A stretch of DNA of 64,000 bases from Lentisphaeria bacterium (GTDB taxonomy: Bacteria > Verrucomicrobiota > Lentisphaeria > Victivallales > Victivallaceae). The position numbers and the translations under genes were made by a program. Below the pieces are notes generated by a model. That model was not told the DNA's origin. It saw only the letters and a program-made list of their open reading frames with translations, and searched no databases. Of this stretch, positions 56,199-64,000 are shown piece after piece (the first letter of the stretch is position 1; each line of letters starts with the position of its first letter). Location of the stretch: NCBI GenBank assembly GCA_022768375.1, contig JALEMG010000010.1, positions 62,001 through 126,000 on the forward strand. Direction: 5' to 3'.

Positions 56199-56226
56199 TT
56201 GAAAAAAAACTCCTCCGCGGTATATT
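56199..56226 (+). promoter_or_regulatory. promoter of the Tad operon
   Basis: TTGAAA (56199-56204), 16 bases, TATATT (56221-56226), preceded by A/T-rich DNA that could act as an UP element. The cpaB ATG is 40 bases downstream. Confidence 0.75.
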
Positions 56227-56265
56227 ACTCTAATTTCGGTCCAAATGTATAGGGTAGGGATATTT

Positions 56266-57096
56266 ATGAAAAACATCATTCCGCTGATCGTCGCCGTCAT
56301 CTTGGCTCTGGCCGCCGTATTCATCGTGAGCCGTGTTCTCGTCCAGAACGACGAGGGCACGAAAGAGCCGCAGGTTTCCGTCGTGATCGCGGCCCGGGAC
56401 TTGGACCCGGGGGAGGAGATCACCCCGGGGGCGTGCTCGTTCAAATCCATTCCGCGCTCCGCAGTGCCGAAAAACGCTTTGCTCTGGGAAAGTGTGAGTC
56501 TGGCCTACGGGCAGAAGATCCCTTATAAAATTCCGGAAGGCGATTACATCCAACTTTCCGATCTGCAGTTGAATGTTTCGCTGGCCGACTGCGTGGAAAA
56601 GGGGAAATGGCTGATCCCGGTGACGTTTTCCGATCCCGCGCTGGTGAAAATGCTGGTGCCGGAGGATGAGATCGCGATCGTCGCGTCGTACTCCGAGATG
56701 AAAATGACGCCGCCGAGTCCGGAACGTATCGTATCGGCGGTCGACCATCCCTCCGCCAACCCCGAGGTCAGCCGGAAACGCGAGACGATCGTGCTGTTCC
56801 CCTGCGTGAAAGTGACCGGAATCGCCAATGATCGTGGTTCGTTCCGGGAACCGGGCGGGAACACGGCGACGATTTTCATCTCGCTGCCCCCGCAACAGGC
56901 GACGATCCTGCTGGCCGCCCAGCGGGAGGCGGAACTTTATCCGGTATTGCGGAAACGCAATGACGCCACGGCGAGAAACCGCCGGGAACTGGGGTCGGTC
57001 AACGCCGTGACCTTCGAGCGGATGCGTGCCAATCTGGAAACCACGGAACTGCCGGATGTGATGGTGCGGAGCGGTAAACAGGCGGAGGACAAATGA
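56266..57096 (+). CDS. cpaB: Flp pilus assembly protein CpaB/RcpC
   Basis: The 276-residue protein has one N-terminal membrane helix (IIPLIVAVILALAAVFIVS) and a SAF domain typical of CpaB: SVVIAARDLDPGEEITPGACSFKSIPRSAVPKNALL in outline, positions 45-80, followed by the RcpC-like region (VTFSDPALVKMLVPEDEIAIVASY). CpaB sits in the periplasm and helps the secretin of Tad systems. The ATG at 56266 has AGGGA upstream; the in-frame ATG at 56245 is a weaker alternative. Its stop overlaps the secretin start. No Flp pilin or CpaE lies in front of it. Confidence 0.9.
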   Translation: MKNIIPLIVAVILALAAVFIVSRVLVQNDEGTKEPQVSVVIAARDLDPGEEITPGACSFKSIPRSAVPKNALLWESVSLAYGQKIPYKIPEGDYIQLSDLQLNVSLADCVEKGKWLIPVTFSDPALVKMLVPEDEIAIVASYSEMKMTPPSPERIVSAVDHPSANPEVSRKRETIVLFPCVKVTGIANDRGSFREPGGNTATIFISLPPQQATILLAAQREAELYPVLRKRNDATARNRRELGSVNAVTFERMRANLETTELPDVMVRSGKQAEDK

Positions 57097-58718
57097 AAAA
57101 GCGAATTATTTTCCTCCTTCTGGCGCTGGCGCCGGGGATGTTGTCTCTCCCCGGCGCGGAGCAGACCGCGGCGGGATCGAAGGTACAGTCTCCTTCAACG
57201 TTGGAGATCAATATCGGCAGCGCGCTGCGCCCCGAAATGGTTTCGGAACCGCTATCCATTACCTCCGGTGAAAAACGGGTGATCAATCTGCCTTTTACCA
57301 TTGAATCCTGCAAATCCAACTCCGCCAATGTGAAAATCGAGGCGGTCAACGGCAGTTCGTTTGAGATTTCCGGCGTCACTCCGGGCAAGGCGGTGGTGAC
57401 GGTCGTCGCGGGAGGGCTTGAGAAGGAGTTCAACGTCACGGTGTTCAATTCCACACTGCAGACCTATCAGGAACTCGGCCGACTGCTGGAGGAGATTCCC
57501 GAGGTGACGCTGGAACTGCGGGACGACGGATTGACGCTGATTGGTGCGATCGCGAATCCCGGACACTGGAAATACTTTCGCCGGATCATGGCGCCTTTCG
57601 CGGAACGATGCCATAATTATGTGGTGTTTCAGCCGGATGCCCAACTGATCGAGAACTTGAAGAAACAGTTGGGGGAGGCGGGGTTCCCCGTGGTGAAAAA
57701 CGGCGCGACTCCGAATCCCGGCGAACTGGCGTTTCAGTTGAGCGGCGGCGTCCTGATGATTTCCGGGGATCTGCTCTCCGAGGAGAGCATCAAAAAAGCC
57801 CAGCGGATCCTCGCTTCGCAGGAATGGCTGAACCCGGAGTGGAACGGCAACAATTTTCGCGCGGAGACGGACCTTCACGTGGCGCCGTCCCAGATCGACC
57901 TCGGAATCGTATTCGTCGGCGTGACCCGGAACCAGTTGGAACGGCTGGGCAACTCTTCGGCGAACGGCACGGTGCTGTCCTGGGATGTGATCGGCTGGTT
58001 CAAGGCTTTGTACGGCGGAAGTCCGGACGCGTTCTCCAGTCATGGCGATCAGCATGTCGGCGGTTCCGTGCTGCTGCAGTCGAATCTGAAAGGCTCGCTG
58101 ATGTTTTTCGGCGACAGCGGGATCTCCGACTTCCGCGACGCCGGTCACGTCACGCTGACCAACAACAGCAAAGAGGACGCCGTCTTTGAAAACGGCGGTA
58201 CCCGGAACGTGATGGTCTACGGCAGCGAGTCCGCCGATTTGAAGGAGATCGAATTCGGTCTGAAGTACAAGGCCCGGGCGTTGCTGCTGGAAGGCAACAT
58301 GGTGAAACTCAATCTCGATCTGGAACGGAGTCTCCCCCCGGTCAAAGTCGACAATGACTATGTCCAGCGCAAAAGCAAGACCAAGACCGAACTGCTCTGT
58401 CCGCTGGGCAAAACCGCAGTCATCGCGGGACAGAAGGAGTTGACGTTCACCAAAAACGGCCCGGCGGGGTATGCGTTTCTGCGGCATGTCCCGGTCCTCA
58501 ACTGGTTCTTCTCTTTCGAGGAGGATCAGGGCGAGGAGGTGCAGATTCTGGTTCTGGTCTCTCCGGAACTGATGCATCAGAATGTCCAGATGGCCTCCCG
58601 GCCCTCCGCGGAGACCGCCACTCTGGAAAAGGATGTCTTCACCGATGTCGATTCCAGGAATCAGGCCGCGCGGGAGAAGGAACAGCGCAACTGGTTCTCG
58701 CGGATGTTCACCTGGTGA
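57093..58718 (+). CDS. Tad-type secretin (CpaC/RcpA-like)
   Basis: The 541-residue protein has a signal peptide (MKKRIIFLLLALAPGMLSLPGA). The N-terminal part has a BON/pilotin-like pattern with SGVTPGKAVVTVVAGGLEKEFNVTV, then repeats of the CpaC type (LRDDGLTLIGAIANPGHW). The C-terminal half is the secretin domain, ending in VPVLNWFFSFEEDQGEEVQILVLVSPEL near residues 466-495, the conserved secretin end. It forms the outer-membrane pore of the Tad machine. It overlaps cpaB by four bases and is 15 bases before the ATPase gene. Confidence 0.9.
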   Translation: MKKRIIFLLLALAPGMLSLPGAEQTAAGSKVQSPSTLEINIGSALRPEMVSEPLSITSGEKRVINLPFTIESCKSNSANVKIEAVNGSSFEISGVTPGKAVVTVVAGGLEKEFNVTVFNSTLQTYQELGRLLEEIPEVTLELRDDGLTLIGAIANPGHWKYFRRIMAPFAERCHNYVVFQPDAQLIENLKKQLGEAGFPVVKNGATPNPGELAFQLSGGVLMISGDLLSEESIKKAQRILASQEWLNPEWNGNNFRAETDLHVAPSQIDLGIVFVGVTRNQLERLGNSSANGTVLSWDVIGWFKALYGGSPDAFSSHGDQHVGGSVLLQSNLKGSLMFFGDSGISDFRDAGHVTLTNNSKEDAVFENGGTRNVMVYGSESADLKEIEFGLKYKARALLLEGNMVKLNLDLERSLPPVKVDNDYVQRKSKTKTELLCPLGKTAVIAGQKELTFTKNGPAGYAFLRHVPVLNWFFSFEEDQGEEVQILVLVSPELMHQNVQMASRPSAETATLEKDVFTDVDSRNQAAREKEQRNWFSRMFTW

Positions 58719-58733
58719 GGGGCGGAGGCGGCG

Positions 58734-60398
58734 ATGAGACTTTTTCTTCCGCAGGAGGGTCGGCATATCGAATTGCTTCCCGGGTGTGTTCTGACCGTGG
58801 GGCGGGGGGAGGGCGTCGACGTCCGGATCGCCGACAAGCGAGTTTCCCGCCGACATGCCGAGATTTGCGAGGAGAACGGGAAAATCTATGTGCGGGACCT
58901 CGGCAGTCACGCCGGGAGTTGGAGAAATGACGAGCCGATCACGGAGCGGACTGAATTTCTGCCCGGTGACCGGTTGCGGGTCGCCGACTTTGAACTGCGT
59001 CTGGAGGCGGAAAATGCCGCTCCCGCTCCGGCTGCGCCGGAGAATGAACCGGGCGCGGGCATGGCCGGAGTTCACGTGCTGCCGCTGTATCAGGCGCAGT
59101 CGGATCAGCAGAATCTTTTCACCGAATCCGTGATGGAGTTGTCCAAAAAGGTCCAATCGCGTGTGCTGGAACTGCTGGACGTGAATGGCGACGGCGAAGC
59201 CGGCGTTGCCGTATCCCTGATGCGGACGCAGGTGGAACCCGTTCTTGATCAGGTCCTCCGGGAGATTCGGCACGAGATCCCCGGCGATGTTGCGCTGCCG
59301 CAGTTGCGGCAGGTTCTGCTGGACAATCTGATCGGATTGGGGCCGCTGTCGCCCCTGCTGCGGGACCCGACGATTTCCGAAGTCATGATCAACGGGCCGA
59401 ACAATATCTTTGTGGAGAGCAAGGGGTTGCAGTACCGGACCGCATCGAGGTTTCAAGGAGAGGCGCATCTGCAGTCCATCATTCAGCGCATCGTGGAGCC
59501 GCTGGGCCGGCACGTGGATGCGGCGTCGCCGATGGTCGACGCCCGTCTGGAGGACGGTTCGCGGGTGAACGCGGTGATTCCGCCGCTCGCGCTGGACGGT
59601 TCGCTGGTGACCATCCGCAAGTTTCCGTCCAAAAAACTGATGATCGAGGACTTGGAGAAATTCGGCAGTCTGACGCGCCCGATGTCGCTGTTTCTGAAAG
59701 AGGCGGTGCGGGCGCGGCGCAATATTCTGGTCTCCGGCGGTACGGGGTCGGGCAAGACGACGCTCCTGAACATCCTGTCGCAGTTCATCCCGGAAATGGA
59801 ACGGATCATCACGGTGGAGGACTCGGCGGAACTGAAGTTGACCCACGAAAATCTCTGTCGGCTGGAGGCCCGCCCCGCCAACGTGGAGGGACAGGGCCGG
59901 ATCACGATCCGCGATCTGGTGATCAATACGCTCCGGATGCGGCCCGACCGGATCATCGTGGGGGAGTGCCGCGGCGCGGAGGCGCTGGACATGCTGCAGG
60001 CGATGAATACGGGACACGACGGTTCTATGACGACCTGTCACGCCAACAATCCGCGCGATGCCCTGTCGCGGCTGGAGAACATGGTGATGATGGCCGGTTT
60101 TGAACTGCCTTCCGCGGCGATCCGGGAACAGATCGCTTCGGCGATCCATCTCATCGTGCAGCAGACCCGTCTGCCGGACGGGTCGAGAAAGATCGTGAAG
60201 ATATCCGAAGTGACCGGGCGGGAAAACGGCACGATCCTGATGCAGGATATTTTCACATTCGAGCAGGAAGGCTTCGACGAGAAATTCCACGTGATCGGGC
60301 GCCATACCGCCACGGGCAACATTCCCCGCTTCATCGACAATTTGAGACAGTCCGGCGATCTGCAGTTGGATATGTCGGTCTTTGTGCCGGAAGGATGA
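58734..60398 (+). CDS. FHA-domain fused Tad secretion ATPase (CpaF/TadA)
   Basis: The 554-residue protein fuses an N-terminal FHA domain to a CpaF-type secretion ATPase. The FHA core is VGRGEGVDVRIADKRVSRRHAEI with DLGSHAGSW (residues 22-65). The ATPase part begins near 130. GPLSPLLRDPTISEVMINGP is typical of CpaF, Walker A is GGTGSGKT with Lys341, and RPDRIIVGECRGAEALDMLQAMNTGHDGSMTTCHAN in outline holds Walker B and the His box. FHA domains bind phosphothreonine, so the motor may be controlled by a Ser/Thr kinase. It lies between the secretin and tadB. Confidence 0.93.
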   Translation: MRLFLPQEGRHIELLPGCVLTVGRGEGVDVRIADKRVSRRHAEICEENGKIYVRDLGSHAGSWRNDEPITERTEFLPGDRLRVADFELRLEAENAAPAPAAPENEPGAGMAGVHVLPLYQAQSDQQNLFTESVMELSKKVQSRVLELLDVNGDGEAGVAVSLMRTQVEPVLDQVLREIRHEIPGDVALPQLRQVLLDNLIGLGPLSPLLRDPTISEVMINGPNNIFVESKGLQYRTASRFQGEAHLQSIIQRIVEPLGRHVDAASPMVDARLEDGSRVNAVIPPLALDGSLVTIRKFPSKKLMIEDLEKFGSLTRPMSLFLKEAVRARRNILVSGGTGSGKTTLLNILSQFIPEMERIITVEDSAELKLTHENLCRLEARPANVEGQGRITIRDLVINTLRMRPDRIIVGECRGAEALDMLQAMNTGHDGSMTTCHANNPRDALSRLENMVMMAGFELPSAAIREQIASAIHLIVQQTRLPDGSRKIVKISEVTGRENGTILMQDIFTFEQEGFDEKFHVIGRHTATGNIPRFIDNLRQSGDLQLDMSVFVPEG

Positions 60399-60414
60399 GG
60401 TGAAGGCGGTGGAT

Positions 60415-61308
60415 ATGACTCCGATCATGCAGCGTTACATGATCTACCTGCTGGTGTTTGCCGCGGCGGGGGCGCTGGTCTATGTCGTCGTGCAACTGAT
60501 CCAGTCGTTCGGCATGGAGCGGTACGACCGGCAGTTGAAGGACGTGAATTCCCGCGGGCACCGGAACGATATTGGTTATTTCATCGCTCCGAAAACCCTG
60601 TTTCAGGTCCAGTTGTCCCTGGGAGTACTGATGCTGGGGATCGTGATCGCGGTCCTGCTGTTCCTGCAGGTGTTTTACTGGTATGCGCTGCTGCCGGCGG
60701 CGGGAGTGGCGTTGGGGTTGGGATTTGCGTTGCCGCCGCTGTATTTTTTGCAGAAAGTGAAAAAGCGGGCGCAGGAGTTTGAGCGCAGCATTTTGGATTT
60801 TTCCATGGGATTGACCAGCGGACTGCGGGCGGGACAGGCGCTGCCGCAGGCGCTGGAGGTTTTTTCCCGCCGCTGTGAAGGCCCGATGAAAGAGGAACTG
60901 ACCGTGGTGCTCCGGGAGTACCGACTGGGGCTGGAATTGACGGACGCGCTCCAGAGGATGTATGACCGCCTGCCGTGCGAGGATCTGCAGTTGCTGATCA
61001 TCTCCATCCGGTTGACGACACAGTCCGGCGGCAGTCTGGCGGACGTTCTGCAGCGGATTACGCAGACGATCCGCGGGCGGATTGATTTTGCCCAGAAGTT
61101 GAAGGCGCTGACGGCGCAGGGCCGTTTCGAGGCGCTGGCCATGTCCCTGGCTCCGCTGCTGGCGTTCATTCTGCTTTTCATCATCAACAATGAACTGATG
61201 CTTCCGATGGTGCAGACGCTGGTCGGCTGGTGTGCGATCGGTGTTATGCTCACGCTGGAGGTGATCGGTTATTTCGTGATTCGCGCGATCGTGGATGTGA
61301 AGGTGTAG
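60415..61308 (+). CDS. Tad inner-membrane protein TadB
   Basis: The 297-residue protein is the TadB-type platform: an N-terminal helix, two further helices (about 60-80 and 84-105), a cytoplasmic GspF-like domain (RSILDFSMGLTSGLRAGQALPQALEVF and the second SIRLTTQSGGSLADVLQ) and two C-terminal helices. The start is ambiguous: GTG at 60400 or 60409 and ATG at 60415 all lie just after the cpaF stop; I use the ATG. TadB and TadC together form the platform that the ATPase drives. Confidence 0.88.
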   Translation: MTPIMQRYMIYLLVFAAAGALVYVVVQLIQSFGMERYDRQLKDVNSRGHRNDIGYFIAPKTLFQVQLSLGVLMLGIVIAVLLFLQVFYWYALLPAAGVALGLGFALPPLYFLQKVKKRAQEFERSILDFSMGLTSGLRAGQALPQALEVFSRRCEGPMKEELTVVLREYRLGLELTDALQRMYDRLPCEDLQLLIISIRLTTQSGGSLADVLQRITQTIRGRIDFAQKLKALTAQGRFEALAMSLAPLLAFILLFIINNELMLPMVQTLVGWCAIGVMLTLEVIGYFVIRAIVDVKV

Positions 61309-61310
61309 AA

Positions 61311-62225
61311 ATGCGGGCCGTACTGATCTATTTCATGACGTTTTTGGCGGTGCTGCTGCCGTTCCTCTGGTTTCTGGTTCTTGCCGACCGCGAGAGGCGT
61401 TCGGAGTCTTCGCGGTCGCAGTCCCGGACGGAGGAGCCGCCGCTGTTCCGGATGAGTTCCGGTCCGGCGGCGCTGCTGGAGTTTCTCGGATTCGGCAGGT
61501 TGATCCGTTCTCTCTCCCCGGTGGGCTGTCGGGAACAGCAGAAGAATTTGGATTACGCCGGACTGCGGACTCTGACCCCGGAGCGGGTGTTCTGCACTCA
61601 GTGTTTTCTGCTGTGCTTTTTCGCCGGCGTGGCCGGCGCGGTCGTCTATGGCATCACCGGAGAGGAGAACCGTCAACTGTCCTCGCTGGTCGGCGCGGTG
61701 ATCGGCGCCTTCATCGGCTGGTTCCTGCCCGGTGTCATCGTCGGGAACAAGGTGGAGGAACGCAAAACCCTGATCCTGCACGCTCTGCCGTTTTCGATCG
61801 ATCTGATCACTTCCGCCATGCGGGGCGGGCTGGATTTCAGCGCCGCAGTCCGGTTTTATGTGAAACTCGGGATCCACGGGCCCCTGACCGAGGAGTATGC
61901 GTTCATGCTCCGGGAGATGGAACTTGGCGTGGTCCGGACGGAGGCGCTGCAGAATATGGCAGCCCGGATTCAGATCAAGGACTTCACCTCGTTTGCTTCC
62001 GCGGTGGTGATGGGAACGGAACTGGGCGCGTCTCTGGCCGACACTATGGAAGTGCAGAGCGAGGAGATGCGCAAACTCCGGTTTTCCATCGCGGAATGCA
62101 AGGCGCAGCGGGCTCCGTCTTTAATGCTGATCCCGATGGCGCTGTTCATTCTTCCTGCCGTATTCATCATCATACTGACGCCGGTGTTCCTGAAAATGAA
62201 GGAAGCCGGAGTCCCGCTGTTTTGA
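61311..62225 (+). CDS. Tad inner-membrane protein TadC
   Basis: The 304-residue protein is the TadC partner. One N-terminal helix (LIYFMTFLAVLLPFLWFLVL) is followed by a loop, then paired helices, and the GspF-like domain (LPFSIDLITSAMRGGLDFSAAVRFY; ASAVVMGTELGASLADTM) with a final pair of helices ending FIIILTPVFLKM. The ATG lies two bases after the tadB stop, so the two are strongly coupled. Confidence 0.88.
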   Translation: MRAVLIYFMTFLAVLLPFLWFLVLADRERRSESSRSQSRTEEPPLFRMSSGPAALLEFLGFGRLIRSLSPVGCREQQKNLDYAGLRTLTPERVFCTQCFLLCFFAGVAGAVVYGITGEENRQLSSLVGAVIGAFIGWFLPGVIVGNKVEERKTLILHALPFSIDLITSAMRGGLDFSAAVRFYVKLGIHGPLTEEYAFMLREMELGVVRTEALQNMAARIQIKDFTSFASAVVMGTELGASLADTMEVQSEEMRKLRFSIAECKAQRAPSLMLIPMALFILPAVFIIILTPVFLKMKEAGVPLF

Positions 62226-62234
62226 GGTGGCGAT

Positions 62235-63710
62235 ATGCAGAAAAACAATTACAAAATTCATTTCATCAGCGGCGGGTTGGCCGGGCGGTCGTTTGTCGTG
62301 CCTCCGGACGGGCTGCTGATCGGAAAGTCCCGCGCTGCCGCCATCCGTCCGGGTGACAAGGATATCGGGGGCGAGCACGCGGCGTTGCGGATCCAGGGTG
62401 ACCGGGTGATTTTGACGTCCATGGCGGAGACGGTTTTTGTCCGGGAGGAACAGTTGGCGCCGGGTGCCGAGTGCTCTATCGGACCGGGGACCGACGTCCG
62501 GCTGGGCAAAAATCTCGTGTTTCTGCTGCAGACGGACGAGGAAGTTCCGGAGGATGGCATGGACGACGGGGAGGAGGAAACGCAGGATGAGGCGACCATG
62601 GACGACCTCGGCGGCGCCGCGGCGGAGGATGCGGCGCCGGAAGCGCAGACCCGTTATGCTTCGGCGACGGAGTTGAAGGATCTTCGGACGTTTGCCCAGA
62701 GCCGGATCCGCCGCCGTCGGATCGTGCTGTCGGTCAGTGTGCTGCTGTTTCTTGTCATCGTGGTCGGCGGATTCCTGTATACGGAGTTCAGTGATGAGAA
62801 CCCGGTGACCTGGCCCGGGGAATTGACCGGGCAGTACCTCGACGACGAGGTCCGGTTTGAACTGCCGCCGGCGGGAAAATTCCTGATTTACTTCCCGAAG
62901 TGCAAATGGACGACGATCCGCAAAAACGCGGACGGGACCGACTGCGATGTCATGACGCTGCTGGGCCGGAAGTTGGATGTGCCGTTCCATCTGCGGCTGA
63001 AGGTGAACACCATCCCGAACGGGTATATCGTACCGAAGGATAAAAGTTTTGAACAGTGGAAGAAACTGGCGGTGGAGCGGCAGGGCATCGTATTCACTTC
63101 CCTGCCGGAGCGGAAATTCTACTCCCCGGAGACCAGCGGATACCCGTACTACGCCGTAAGTTACAAGCGGGGCGACAAGGACTCCCAGTGGCAGGGGATC
63201 GTCAGTTATCTGCGGTATCACGACCGGGAGATCATATTCCTGCGGGAAGTGCCGCTGCGTCACTTCTGGCGGGCGGAAGGGGTGCTGGAGGCGTTCAACT
63301 GCTTCGTGGCGTCGTCGGATGCCCGGTTGTCTTACTGGGAGATCCCGGAAAAGGTGTCGCTGGAGAAATCCAAGACCAGTATTTACAAGGGGCTGCTGGA
63401 GATCATGTGGGGCCACCTGATCACCAATAACTGGGAGGACGTGAAATCGCAGTTCGCCGAACTGCTTTCCGTCTCCTACCATCAGAACGATCTGGGCATG
63501 GCCCGGGATGCGCTGGTCCTCTGGCAGGAATTTCGCAAACGGCAGCAATTCTGGTATTGCCAGGAGTGTCTGGCGTACCAGAAATGCCGGTTGAATCGGG
63601 ACATGGGAGGAATGATCCGCATTCGGAATGAATGTCTTCGCAAATTCCCGGATGCCGGGGATTGCCGGCACGAGAGAATCATCAAAAACATCTGGGATGT
63701 CGAACTATGA
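62235..63710 (+). CDS. membrane protein with N-terminal FHA domain, unknown
   Basis: The 491-residue protein begins with an FHA-like domain (residues 8-100: HFISGGLAGRSFVVPPDGLLIGKS; EHAALRIQGDRVIL). The pattern is weaker than in the ATPase, since the usual SRxH is GEHA here. An acidic linker (about 100-135, DDGEEETQDEATMDD) leads to one membrane helix (about 160-182, IVLSVSVLLFLVIVVGGFLY) and a 300-residue C-terminal domain, which should be periplasmic. That domain is rich in Tyr and Trp and resembles nothing I know. Its stop overlaps the next gene's start (ATGA). It could link a phosphorylation signal to the Tad apparatus. Confidence 0.75.
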   Translation: MQKNNYKIHFISGGLAGRSFVVPPDGLLIGKSRAAAIRPGDKDIGGEHAALRIQGDRVILTSMAETVFVREEQLAPGAECSIGPGTDVRLGKNLVFLLQTDEEVPEDGMDDGEEETQDEATMDDLGGAAAEDAAPEAQTRYASATELKDLRTFAQSRIRRRRIVLSVSVLLFLVIVVGGFLYTEFSDENPVTWPGELTGQYLDDEVRFELPPAGKFLIYFPKCKWTTIRKNADGTDCDVMTLLGRKLDVPFHLRLKVNTIPNGYIVPKDKSFEQWKKLAVERQGIVFTSLPERKFYSPETSGYPYYAVSYKRGDKDSQWQGIVSYLRYHDREIIFLREVPLRHFWRAEGVLEAFNCFVASSDARLSYWEIPEKVSLEKSKTSIYKGLLEIMWGHLITNNWEDVKSQFAELLSVSYHQNDLGMARDALVLWQEFRKRQQFWYCQECLAYQKCRLNRDMGGMIRIRNECLRKFPDAGDCRHERIIKNIWDVEL

Positions 63711-64000
63711 TCAAGTTTGGAATCAGGAGGAGACGGCGGACATCCGCGTCCGGTGCTTCGGCGCGATCCGCGAAAGGGGAGCGGCGGAGATTGTCGTTCG
63801 GGAAGATCCTGACTTGGGCTCGTGCGCAGATTTCCCGTCCGGACCCCCGTAAAGCGGGCGGCGGTGTACTGCTGGAACTGCGTTGCCGGGACCAGTTGAT
63901 TCTCTCCGCCAGTACGCTTACGCTGAGCGACGTCGTCACGATCGGCAAAGCCCCGGACAACGACTGGCGGATTCCGGAAATCGACGGCACATGCGGCGCG
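63707..64000 (+). CDS. FHA-domain protein, 3' part outside window
   Basis: The open frame runs from an ATG overlapping the previous stop (ATGA) to the edge, with 98 codons visible. Residues 1-45 are strongly basic and Ser/Arg-rich (KFGIRRRRRTSASGASARSAK). Residues 55-98 look like the start of an FHA domain (LLELRCRDQLILSASTLTLSDVVTIGKAPDNDWRIP in outline). It would be the third FHA protein of the locus. Its length and remaining domains are unknown. Confidence 0.6.
   Translation, partial: MIKFGIRRRRRTSASGASARSAKGERRRLSFGKILTWARAQISRPDPRKAGGGVLLELRCRDQLILSASTLTLSDVVTIGKAPDNDWRIPEIDGTCGA

Follow-up and report, generated by a model that had tools for sequence, protein, structure and literature searches.

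A Tad pilus locus of a Lentisphaeria bacterium with a linked Ser/Thr kinase and a candidate phosphothreonine switch of its FHA-domain motor

The stretch of DNA analysed here (the window) comprises 64,000 nucleotides, positions 62,001-126,000 of contig JALEMG010000010.1, from a draft genome of 2.25 Mb (G000, the source genome). Genes were called from open reading frames and Pfam searches, and the contig was also read past position 64000, where positions in the adjoining stretch (L005) are converted to window-style coordinates by adding 55000. Open reading frames and Pfam matches confirmed the genes named by an earlier, sequence-only reading of the end of the window, namely CpaB, a secretin, FHA-CpaF, TadB, TadC and two further FHA-domain proteins:

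56245..57096, + strand: cpaB/rcpC homologue (Pfam SAF, E=1.3e-5; weak RcpC match, E=0.027)
57093..58718, + strand: cpaC secretin (Pfam Secretin, E=6.9e-10)
58734..60398, + strand: FHA-CpaF, with N-terminal FHA domain, linker and Tad motor ATPase (T2SSE, E=5.6e-64; FHA, E=9.6e-15)
58794..58982, + strand: FHA domain of FHA-CpaF; Arg24, Ser38 and His41 present, Asn position occupied by Ala60
60415..61308, + strand: tadB (T2SSF, E=2.6e-15)
61311..62225, + strand: tadC (T2SSF, E=4.7e-13)
62235..63710, + strand: FHA-TM1, with degenerate FHA domain, variable linker, TRYAS motif, one TM helix and outer part (AlphaFold2 model, family alignment)
62649..62663, + strand: TRYAS motif of FHA-TM1 (Thr139), candidate phosphorylation site
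62712..62780, + strand: TM helix of FHA-TM1, limits approximate (hydropathy; model helix 144-186)
63707..64000, then 2124 bp past the window end, + strand: FHAx2-TM2, 805 aa (Pfam FHA x2, E=2.4e-23)

The position of cpaB was identical across all full homologous loci in the locus comparison. The most likely start of tadB is the ATG at 60415 rather than the mechanically first TTG at 60382, and that of tadC the ATG at 61311 rather than the mechanically first GTG at 61230; the start of FHAx2-TM2 overlaps the end of FHA-TM1 (ATGA at 63707). A reverse-strand open reading frame of 1058 aa across the Tad region was rejected as a GC-rich mirror artefact and is not a gene. The earlier count of three FHA proteins was right, and since FHAx2-TM2 has two FHA domains, with a single TM helix and a helical solenoid on the outer side (model mean pLDDT 83.9), the locus encodes four FHA domains in all. 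A search of the genome with PF00498 also returned four FHA domains, three of them at the locus and one on another contig; the FHA domain of FHA-TM1, which is recognizable by its fold in the AlphaFold2 model, was missed because it is too degenerate and falls below the Pfam cut-off by sequence. The sole match outside the locus is a small separate FHA protein on contig C61 (L007:6551-7153, + strand).

The observation that the window itself holds no Flp pilin, prepilin peptidase or CpaE was correct, and Flp-like pilins and a peptidase are encoded 9-10 kb past it. They belong to a convergent operon with the order Flp-like pilin (two copies), prepilin peptidase (tadV), TadE-like, TadG-like, second TadE-like, a 149-aa protein, a second CpaF without an FHA domain (CpaF2) and a soluble Ser/Thr kinase of 294 aa, whose gene overlaps cpaF2; reading past 64000, as had been proposed, thus revealed the linked kinase. 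The peptidase (Peptidase_A24, E=4.7e-15) and the TadE/TadG-like proteins (Pfam Tad, E=1.5e-6) were recognized by Pfam, and the two small pilin-like open reading frames beside tadV, a pair that is kept in clade A loci (defined below), match Flp_Fap below the cut-off (E=0.006). CpaF2 (~359 aa; L005:12949-14028, - strand) lacks the FHA domain and N-terminal region of FHA-CpaF and is conserved beside the kinase; it is unusual for a Tad locus to have two motors. Directly after FHAx2-TM2 lies a gene for a 265-aa HExxH membrane protein (L005:11315-12112, + strand; window-style 66315-67112) that has an invariant, zincin-like HE-x2-H...YEE/YDE pattern, matches no Pfam family and is kept wherever a clade A locus extends that far. 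No PF16968 match for TadZ/CpaE was found, and the control genomes gave no match either. An OmpR-type response regulator is encoded directly upstream of flp (L005:18826-19620, - strand); among the loci compared it was matched in the window's genome only, and hence we did not count it in the system.

Judged by its gene content, this is a locus for a Tad (type IVc) pilus to which a kinase is linked. It shares with the Tad (Flp) pilus the presence of CpaB, secretin, CpaF, TadB, TadC, prepilin peptidase, TadE/TadG-like proteins and Flp-like pilins in one block, and differs from it in having two CpaF, three FHA proteins and a kinase (in relatives also a PP2C phosphatase), with no TadZ/CpaE found. 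The sequence-only reading had left the substrate open; given the Flp-like pilins just downstream, a Tad pilus is the likely predicted product, and we found no evidence of a separate secreted substrate.

When FHA-TM1 was used to search 100 related genomes, homologues were found in 25, falling into two groups (clades A and B), and a phylum-wide search of 289 genomes showed that the full-length family reaches other families and classes. Clade A, the group of the window, has the convergent layout described above. In clade B the order is cpaB-cpaC-FHAcpaF-tadB-tadC-FHATM1-FHAx2TM2, followed either directly by a PP2C gene or by flp-tadV-...-PP2C-cpaF2-kinase; a large membrane kinase is often encoded upstream of cpaB, and some loci carry an FHA-kinase fusion. 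A kinase was present at 31/32 testable homologous loci, comprising 11/11 in clade A (G000, G018, G037, G040, G048, G076, G081, G088, G092, G094 and G150) and 20/21 in clade B, where the one locus without it lies on a contig that starts at cpaB; PP2C was present at all 22 clade B loci with enough contig sequence to test and at 0/11 clade A loci, and since the loci share ancestry, neither tally represents independent trials. The positions of the kinase are few and fixed (beside cpaF2, upstream of cpaB, or after PP2C-cpaF2). The genes that flank the window's locus (hisD, panC, ilvE, pal and metK) were not found at the other loci tested, which indicates that the kinase belongs to the conserved block. 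In clade A, the slot in which many clade B loci carry PP2C is occupied by the HExxH protein; the window's own locus contains no PP2C, and the only PF13672 match of the source genome lies outside the locus, on contig C20. Several clade B PP2C proteins (e.g., L081:7052-7963, - strand) share a TPPTE/TPQTE-like Thr motif in their C-terminal tails.

The linked kinase matches the kinase family (Pkinase, E=2.8e-35). Kinases of clade A retain the catalytic Lys, HRD, Asn and DFG/DLG and lack a TM helix; their activity is predicted and not certain, because the Gly-rich loop is degenerate. In clade B, the loop is canonical in most kinases, which also have a TM helix; in the one case examined, carboxypeptidase-regulatory-like and Sel1 domains lie beyond it. 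With eight kinases in the source genome (5-26 in each related genome), the linked kinase may have other targets. Another Ser/Thr kinase is encoded beside a sigma-factor-like gene on the same contig, ~16 kb past the Tad kinase (L006:7837-9967, - strand).

FHA-TM1 (AlphaFold2 mean pLDDT 87.5) has outside the membrane a beta-rich domain and C-terminal helices. Between its FHA domain and the TM helix runs a linker that can be as short as tens of residues or as long as hundreds. At its cytoplasmic juxtamembrane end it carries a near-invariant TRxAS motif, after which comes a conserved Glu. The Thr, Arg and Ala of the motif are shared by 28/29 FHA-TM1 sequences, and we counted the pattern 34 times in 16,430 aa of FHA-TM1 proteins vs. 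four times in ~119,000 aa of other locus proteins. Variants in other families and classes are TRMAT, TRAAT, TQIAA and TRAVT, and one has lost the motif. The linker of one clade B protein (G095; L082:6196-8415, - strand) contains seven further near-identical 15-aa repeats (EEGEMTSVTKFASEV), each of them motif-like; another FHA-TM1 (G013, L075) has other Thr-rich tandem repeats. Conservation of this position in an otherwise free linker fits a candidate phosphorylation site at the Thr, without amounting to proof, and could alternatively be structural, with the motif capping the juxtamembrane helix. The sequence-only reading could not place the extracytoplasmic domain, and it stayed unplaced in our sequence, Pfam and fold searches: there was no sequence match among solved structures and no Pfam family, the matches listed in a fold search against the PDB were FHA domains (YscD and PscD among them), and BFVD gave weak matches only, some of them phage lipoproteins. 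A PsbP/Mog1/DcrB-like fold, suspected from the strand order, was rejected after an empty comparison with E. coli DcrB, as was homology of the outer part to an Auribacterota FHA-TM protein (54 columns only, P=0.11).

Comparison of the residues that bind phosphothreonine separates the motor from the other FHA proteins. In the motor FHA domain, Arg, Ser and His are invariant in all 24 FHA-CpaF sequences of homologous loci, and the consensus Asn (SxNG loop) is replaced by A/T/G/I/L in all 24; in FHA-CpaF proteins from many phyla, Arg is found in only 19/39 and Ser in 22/39. In the source genome, FHA-TM1 has Lys for Arg and Gly for Ser, the first FHA domain of FHAx2-TM2 has Lys for Arg and Cys for Ser, and the second has Ser for Arg with the Ser kept. 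Across the family, the first domain of FHAx2-TM2 has Arg in 21/24 sequences, the source genome being among the exceptions (its Ser and His columns are uncertain, as the alignment is shifted in that loop for some sequences), and the second keeps Ser and Asn. The FHA domain of FHA-TM1 has Lys or Arg and no Ser in clade A. The expectation that all three FHA proteins would read phosphothreonine is therefore not supported for the source genome, where only the motor retains the core and even there the Asn is missing. Because the non-motor domains are degenerate, the motor FHA domain is the only plausible phosphothreonine reader among the locus proteins of this genome. Loss of the binding residues, named beforehand as an outcome that would speak against a switch, was thus found, in part or in full, in the other FHA domains, and the motor keeps its core residues.

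These replacements also bear on an explanation in which the FHA domains play a purely structural part that needs no phosphate, like those of YscD-type T3SS ring proteins, with FHA-CpaF docked constitutively and the linked kinase acting elsewhere, e.g., on transcription or on another envelope protein. It would account for the absence of Arg from three of the four FHA domains in the source genome (two of which also lack Ser) and for the second domain of FHAx2-TM2, in which Arg is replaced by Ser (once each by Phe and Ala) in 24/24 sequences; the YscD and PscD structures among the fold matches listed, and the frequent replacement of Arg by Lys in class III CpaF of other phyla, point the same way. 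FHA-TM1 resembles the T3SS ring proteins YscD/CdsD in having a cytoplasmic FHA domain, one TM helix and an extracytoplasmic domain, but its extracytoplasmic part is unmatched to theirs and the locus contains no T3SS gene. The structural explanation, however, would leave the invariance of Arg, Ser and His in the motor at kinase-carrying loci without a reason, as well as the retention of Arg and Ser in 15/16 clade B FHA-TM1 domains and the PP2C and extra FHA-kinase fusions at clade B loci, and we give it a modest chance of being right.

Because the kinase, and in relatives also a phosphatase, is part of the same conserved block as the FHA motor, reversible phosphorylation is the probable switch of the pilus. 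On balance we favour a Tad pilus locus with its own threonine-phosphorylation switch, in which, we infer, phosphothreonine gates the docking of the motor. In response to a signal, for instance contact or envelope stress, the linked kinase would phosphorylate Thr139 of FHA-TM1 and perhaps further acidic-Thr sites in the linker; binding of phosphorylated Thr139 by the motor FHA domain would dock or activate FHA-CpaF at the TadB/TadC platform and so drive pilin polymerisation, and PP2C would reset the switch, using the enzyme in the locus in clade B and the one encoded elsewhere in the source genome. FHAx2-TM2 and the degenerate FHA domains would likely serve as scaffolds, and CpaF2 may be a retraction or constitutive motor, a division of labour between the two CpaF that is speculation. 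In the Agrobacterium T6SS, a phosphorylated membrane protein is reported to recruit an FHA protein (cited in PMC11217815), which provides a precedent for the proposed docking. The missing Asn of the motor FHA domain and the absence of PP2C from the window's locus count against gating. The kinase switch suggested by the sequence-only reading is thus supported by the linkage (31/32 loci, clade B PP2C) and by the motor Arg, Ser and His in 24/24, and the assumption that every FHA protein reads phosphothreonine is not supported; of the contrary case of a plain Flp pilin and Tad set with no kinase, Flp-like pilins and the Tad set are present, but so is the kinase.

Looking beyond the family, a scan with an FHA-CpaF profile yielded 80 named loci, of which 39 have an N-terminal FHA domain and 41 a plain CpaF, the closest being Victivallales. 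Kinases were found in the fetched flanks of 7/39 FHA-CpaF loci vs. 0/41 plain CpaF loci (Fisher p=0.005), or 5/32 vs. 0/41 without Victivallales-type loci (p=0.013), a comparison that is indicative only, as flank lengths differ and loci are related. The gene-order comparison that had been proposed showed, beyond the conserved block, the order TadB-TadC-FHA-FHA-kinase in two of three planctomycete relatives (L124, where FHA-CpaF precedes it, and L223); the third (L224) has the FHA pair and no kinase within the fetched reach, and an Auribacterota locus (L098) has an FHA pair after TadC.

The FHA-CpaF fusion itself is already known, as class III CpaF (FHA-IDR-CpaF), mostly reported from Betaproteobacteria (PMC12019362). 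These proteins likewise combine FHA domain, linker and ATPase in one polypeptide, but many of the betaproteobacterial ones in our scan carry Lys at the Arg position and Ala/Gly at the Ser position, whereas in the family described here the phosphate-binding core does not vary and the locus includes a kinase. The threonine phosphorylation pathway of T6SS (PpkA, PppA, Fha) is similar in that kinase, PP2C and FHA reader are encoded with an envelope machine (the full set in clade B), and differs in that the machine here is a Tad pilus and that the PP2C of the source genome lies outside the locus; among the locus genes, all of Tad type, there are no T6SS structural genes. T7SSd/e/f combine an FHA motor ATPase with kinase and/or phosphatase genes (PMC11217815), as here, but theirs is an unrelated FtsK-type motor in Gram-positive hosts. 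In the open-access literature searched, which yielded class III CpaF, Kil and the T7SS variants, we found no account of a kinase-linked Tad system or of a Tad operon containing a kinase-phosphatase-FHA set.

In Myxococcus the FHA-CpaF is KilF (PMC8460266), and the Kil system, with KilF and several additional FHA proteins, assembles on prey contact (PMC8460266, PMC12075869); a double-FHA-TM-TPR protein is encoded directly after FHA-CpaF in a Myxococcus locus. The Kil authors suggest a signalling role for the FHA proteins by analogy with T6SS (PMC8460266), and the word kinase is absent from the main texts (PMC8460266, PMC12075869). A Kil-type contact-dependent attack machine, in which the switch would trigger pilus assembly on touching another cell, nevertheless appears improbable, as Kil has a single ATPase, no TadG and two gene clusters, vs. 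two ATPases and a TadG-like protein here. Least probable is a Tad pilus of the ordinary kind in a lineage rich in kinases, with the linked kinase as a hitchhiker: FHA-CpaF and Tad loci are common and there are 5-26 kinases per genome, but at about one kinase per 150-320 kb the chance of finding one is ~10% per 20-25 kb block, yet it was found at 31/32 loci, at few fixed positions across families whose other neighbours differ.

Beyond motor docking, the proposed phosphothreonine switch might be self-contained and reversible and assign the Tad platform to FHA-CpaF for extension or to CpaF2 for retraction, with contact-triggered firing in Victivallales and relatives; its parts would be the kinase, PP2C, the FHA motor and the Thr motif on a membrane tether (in multiple copies in some relatives). 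We advance this version tentatively and regard it as unlikely. To our knowledge, little has been established about how Tad pili are switched on, and we know of no writer for the FHA domain of class III CpaF or for the Kil FHA proteins. Here, one conserved block offers a putative writer, a putative reader, a single candidate site and, in relatives, an eraser, which makes the question directly testable. If true, phosphothreonine gating of this motor would bring type IV filaments under a form of regulation, by threonine phosphorylation, that is known in T6SS and has been proposed for T7SS variants.
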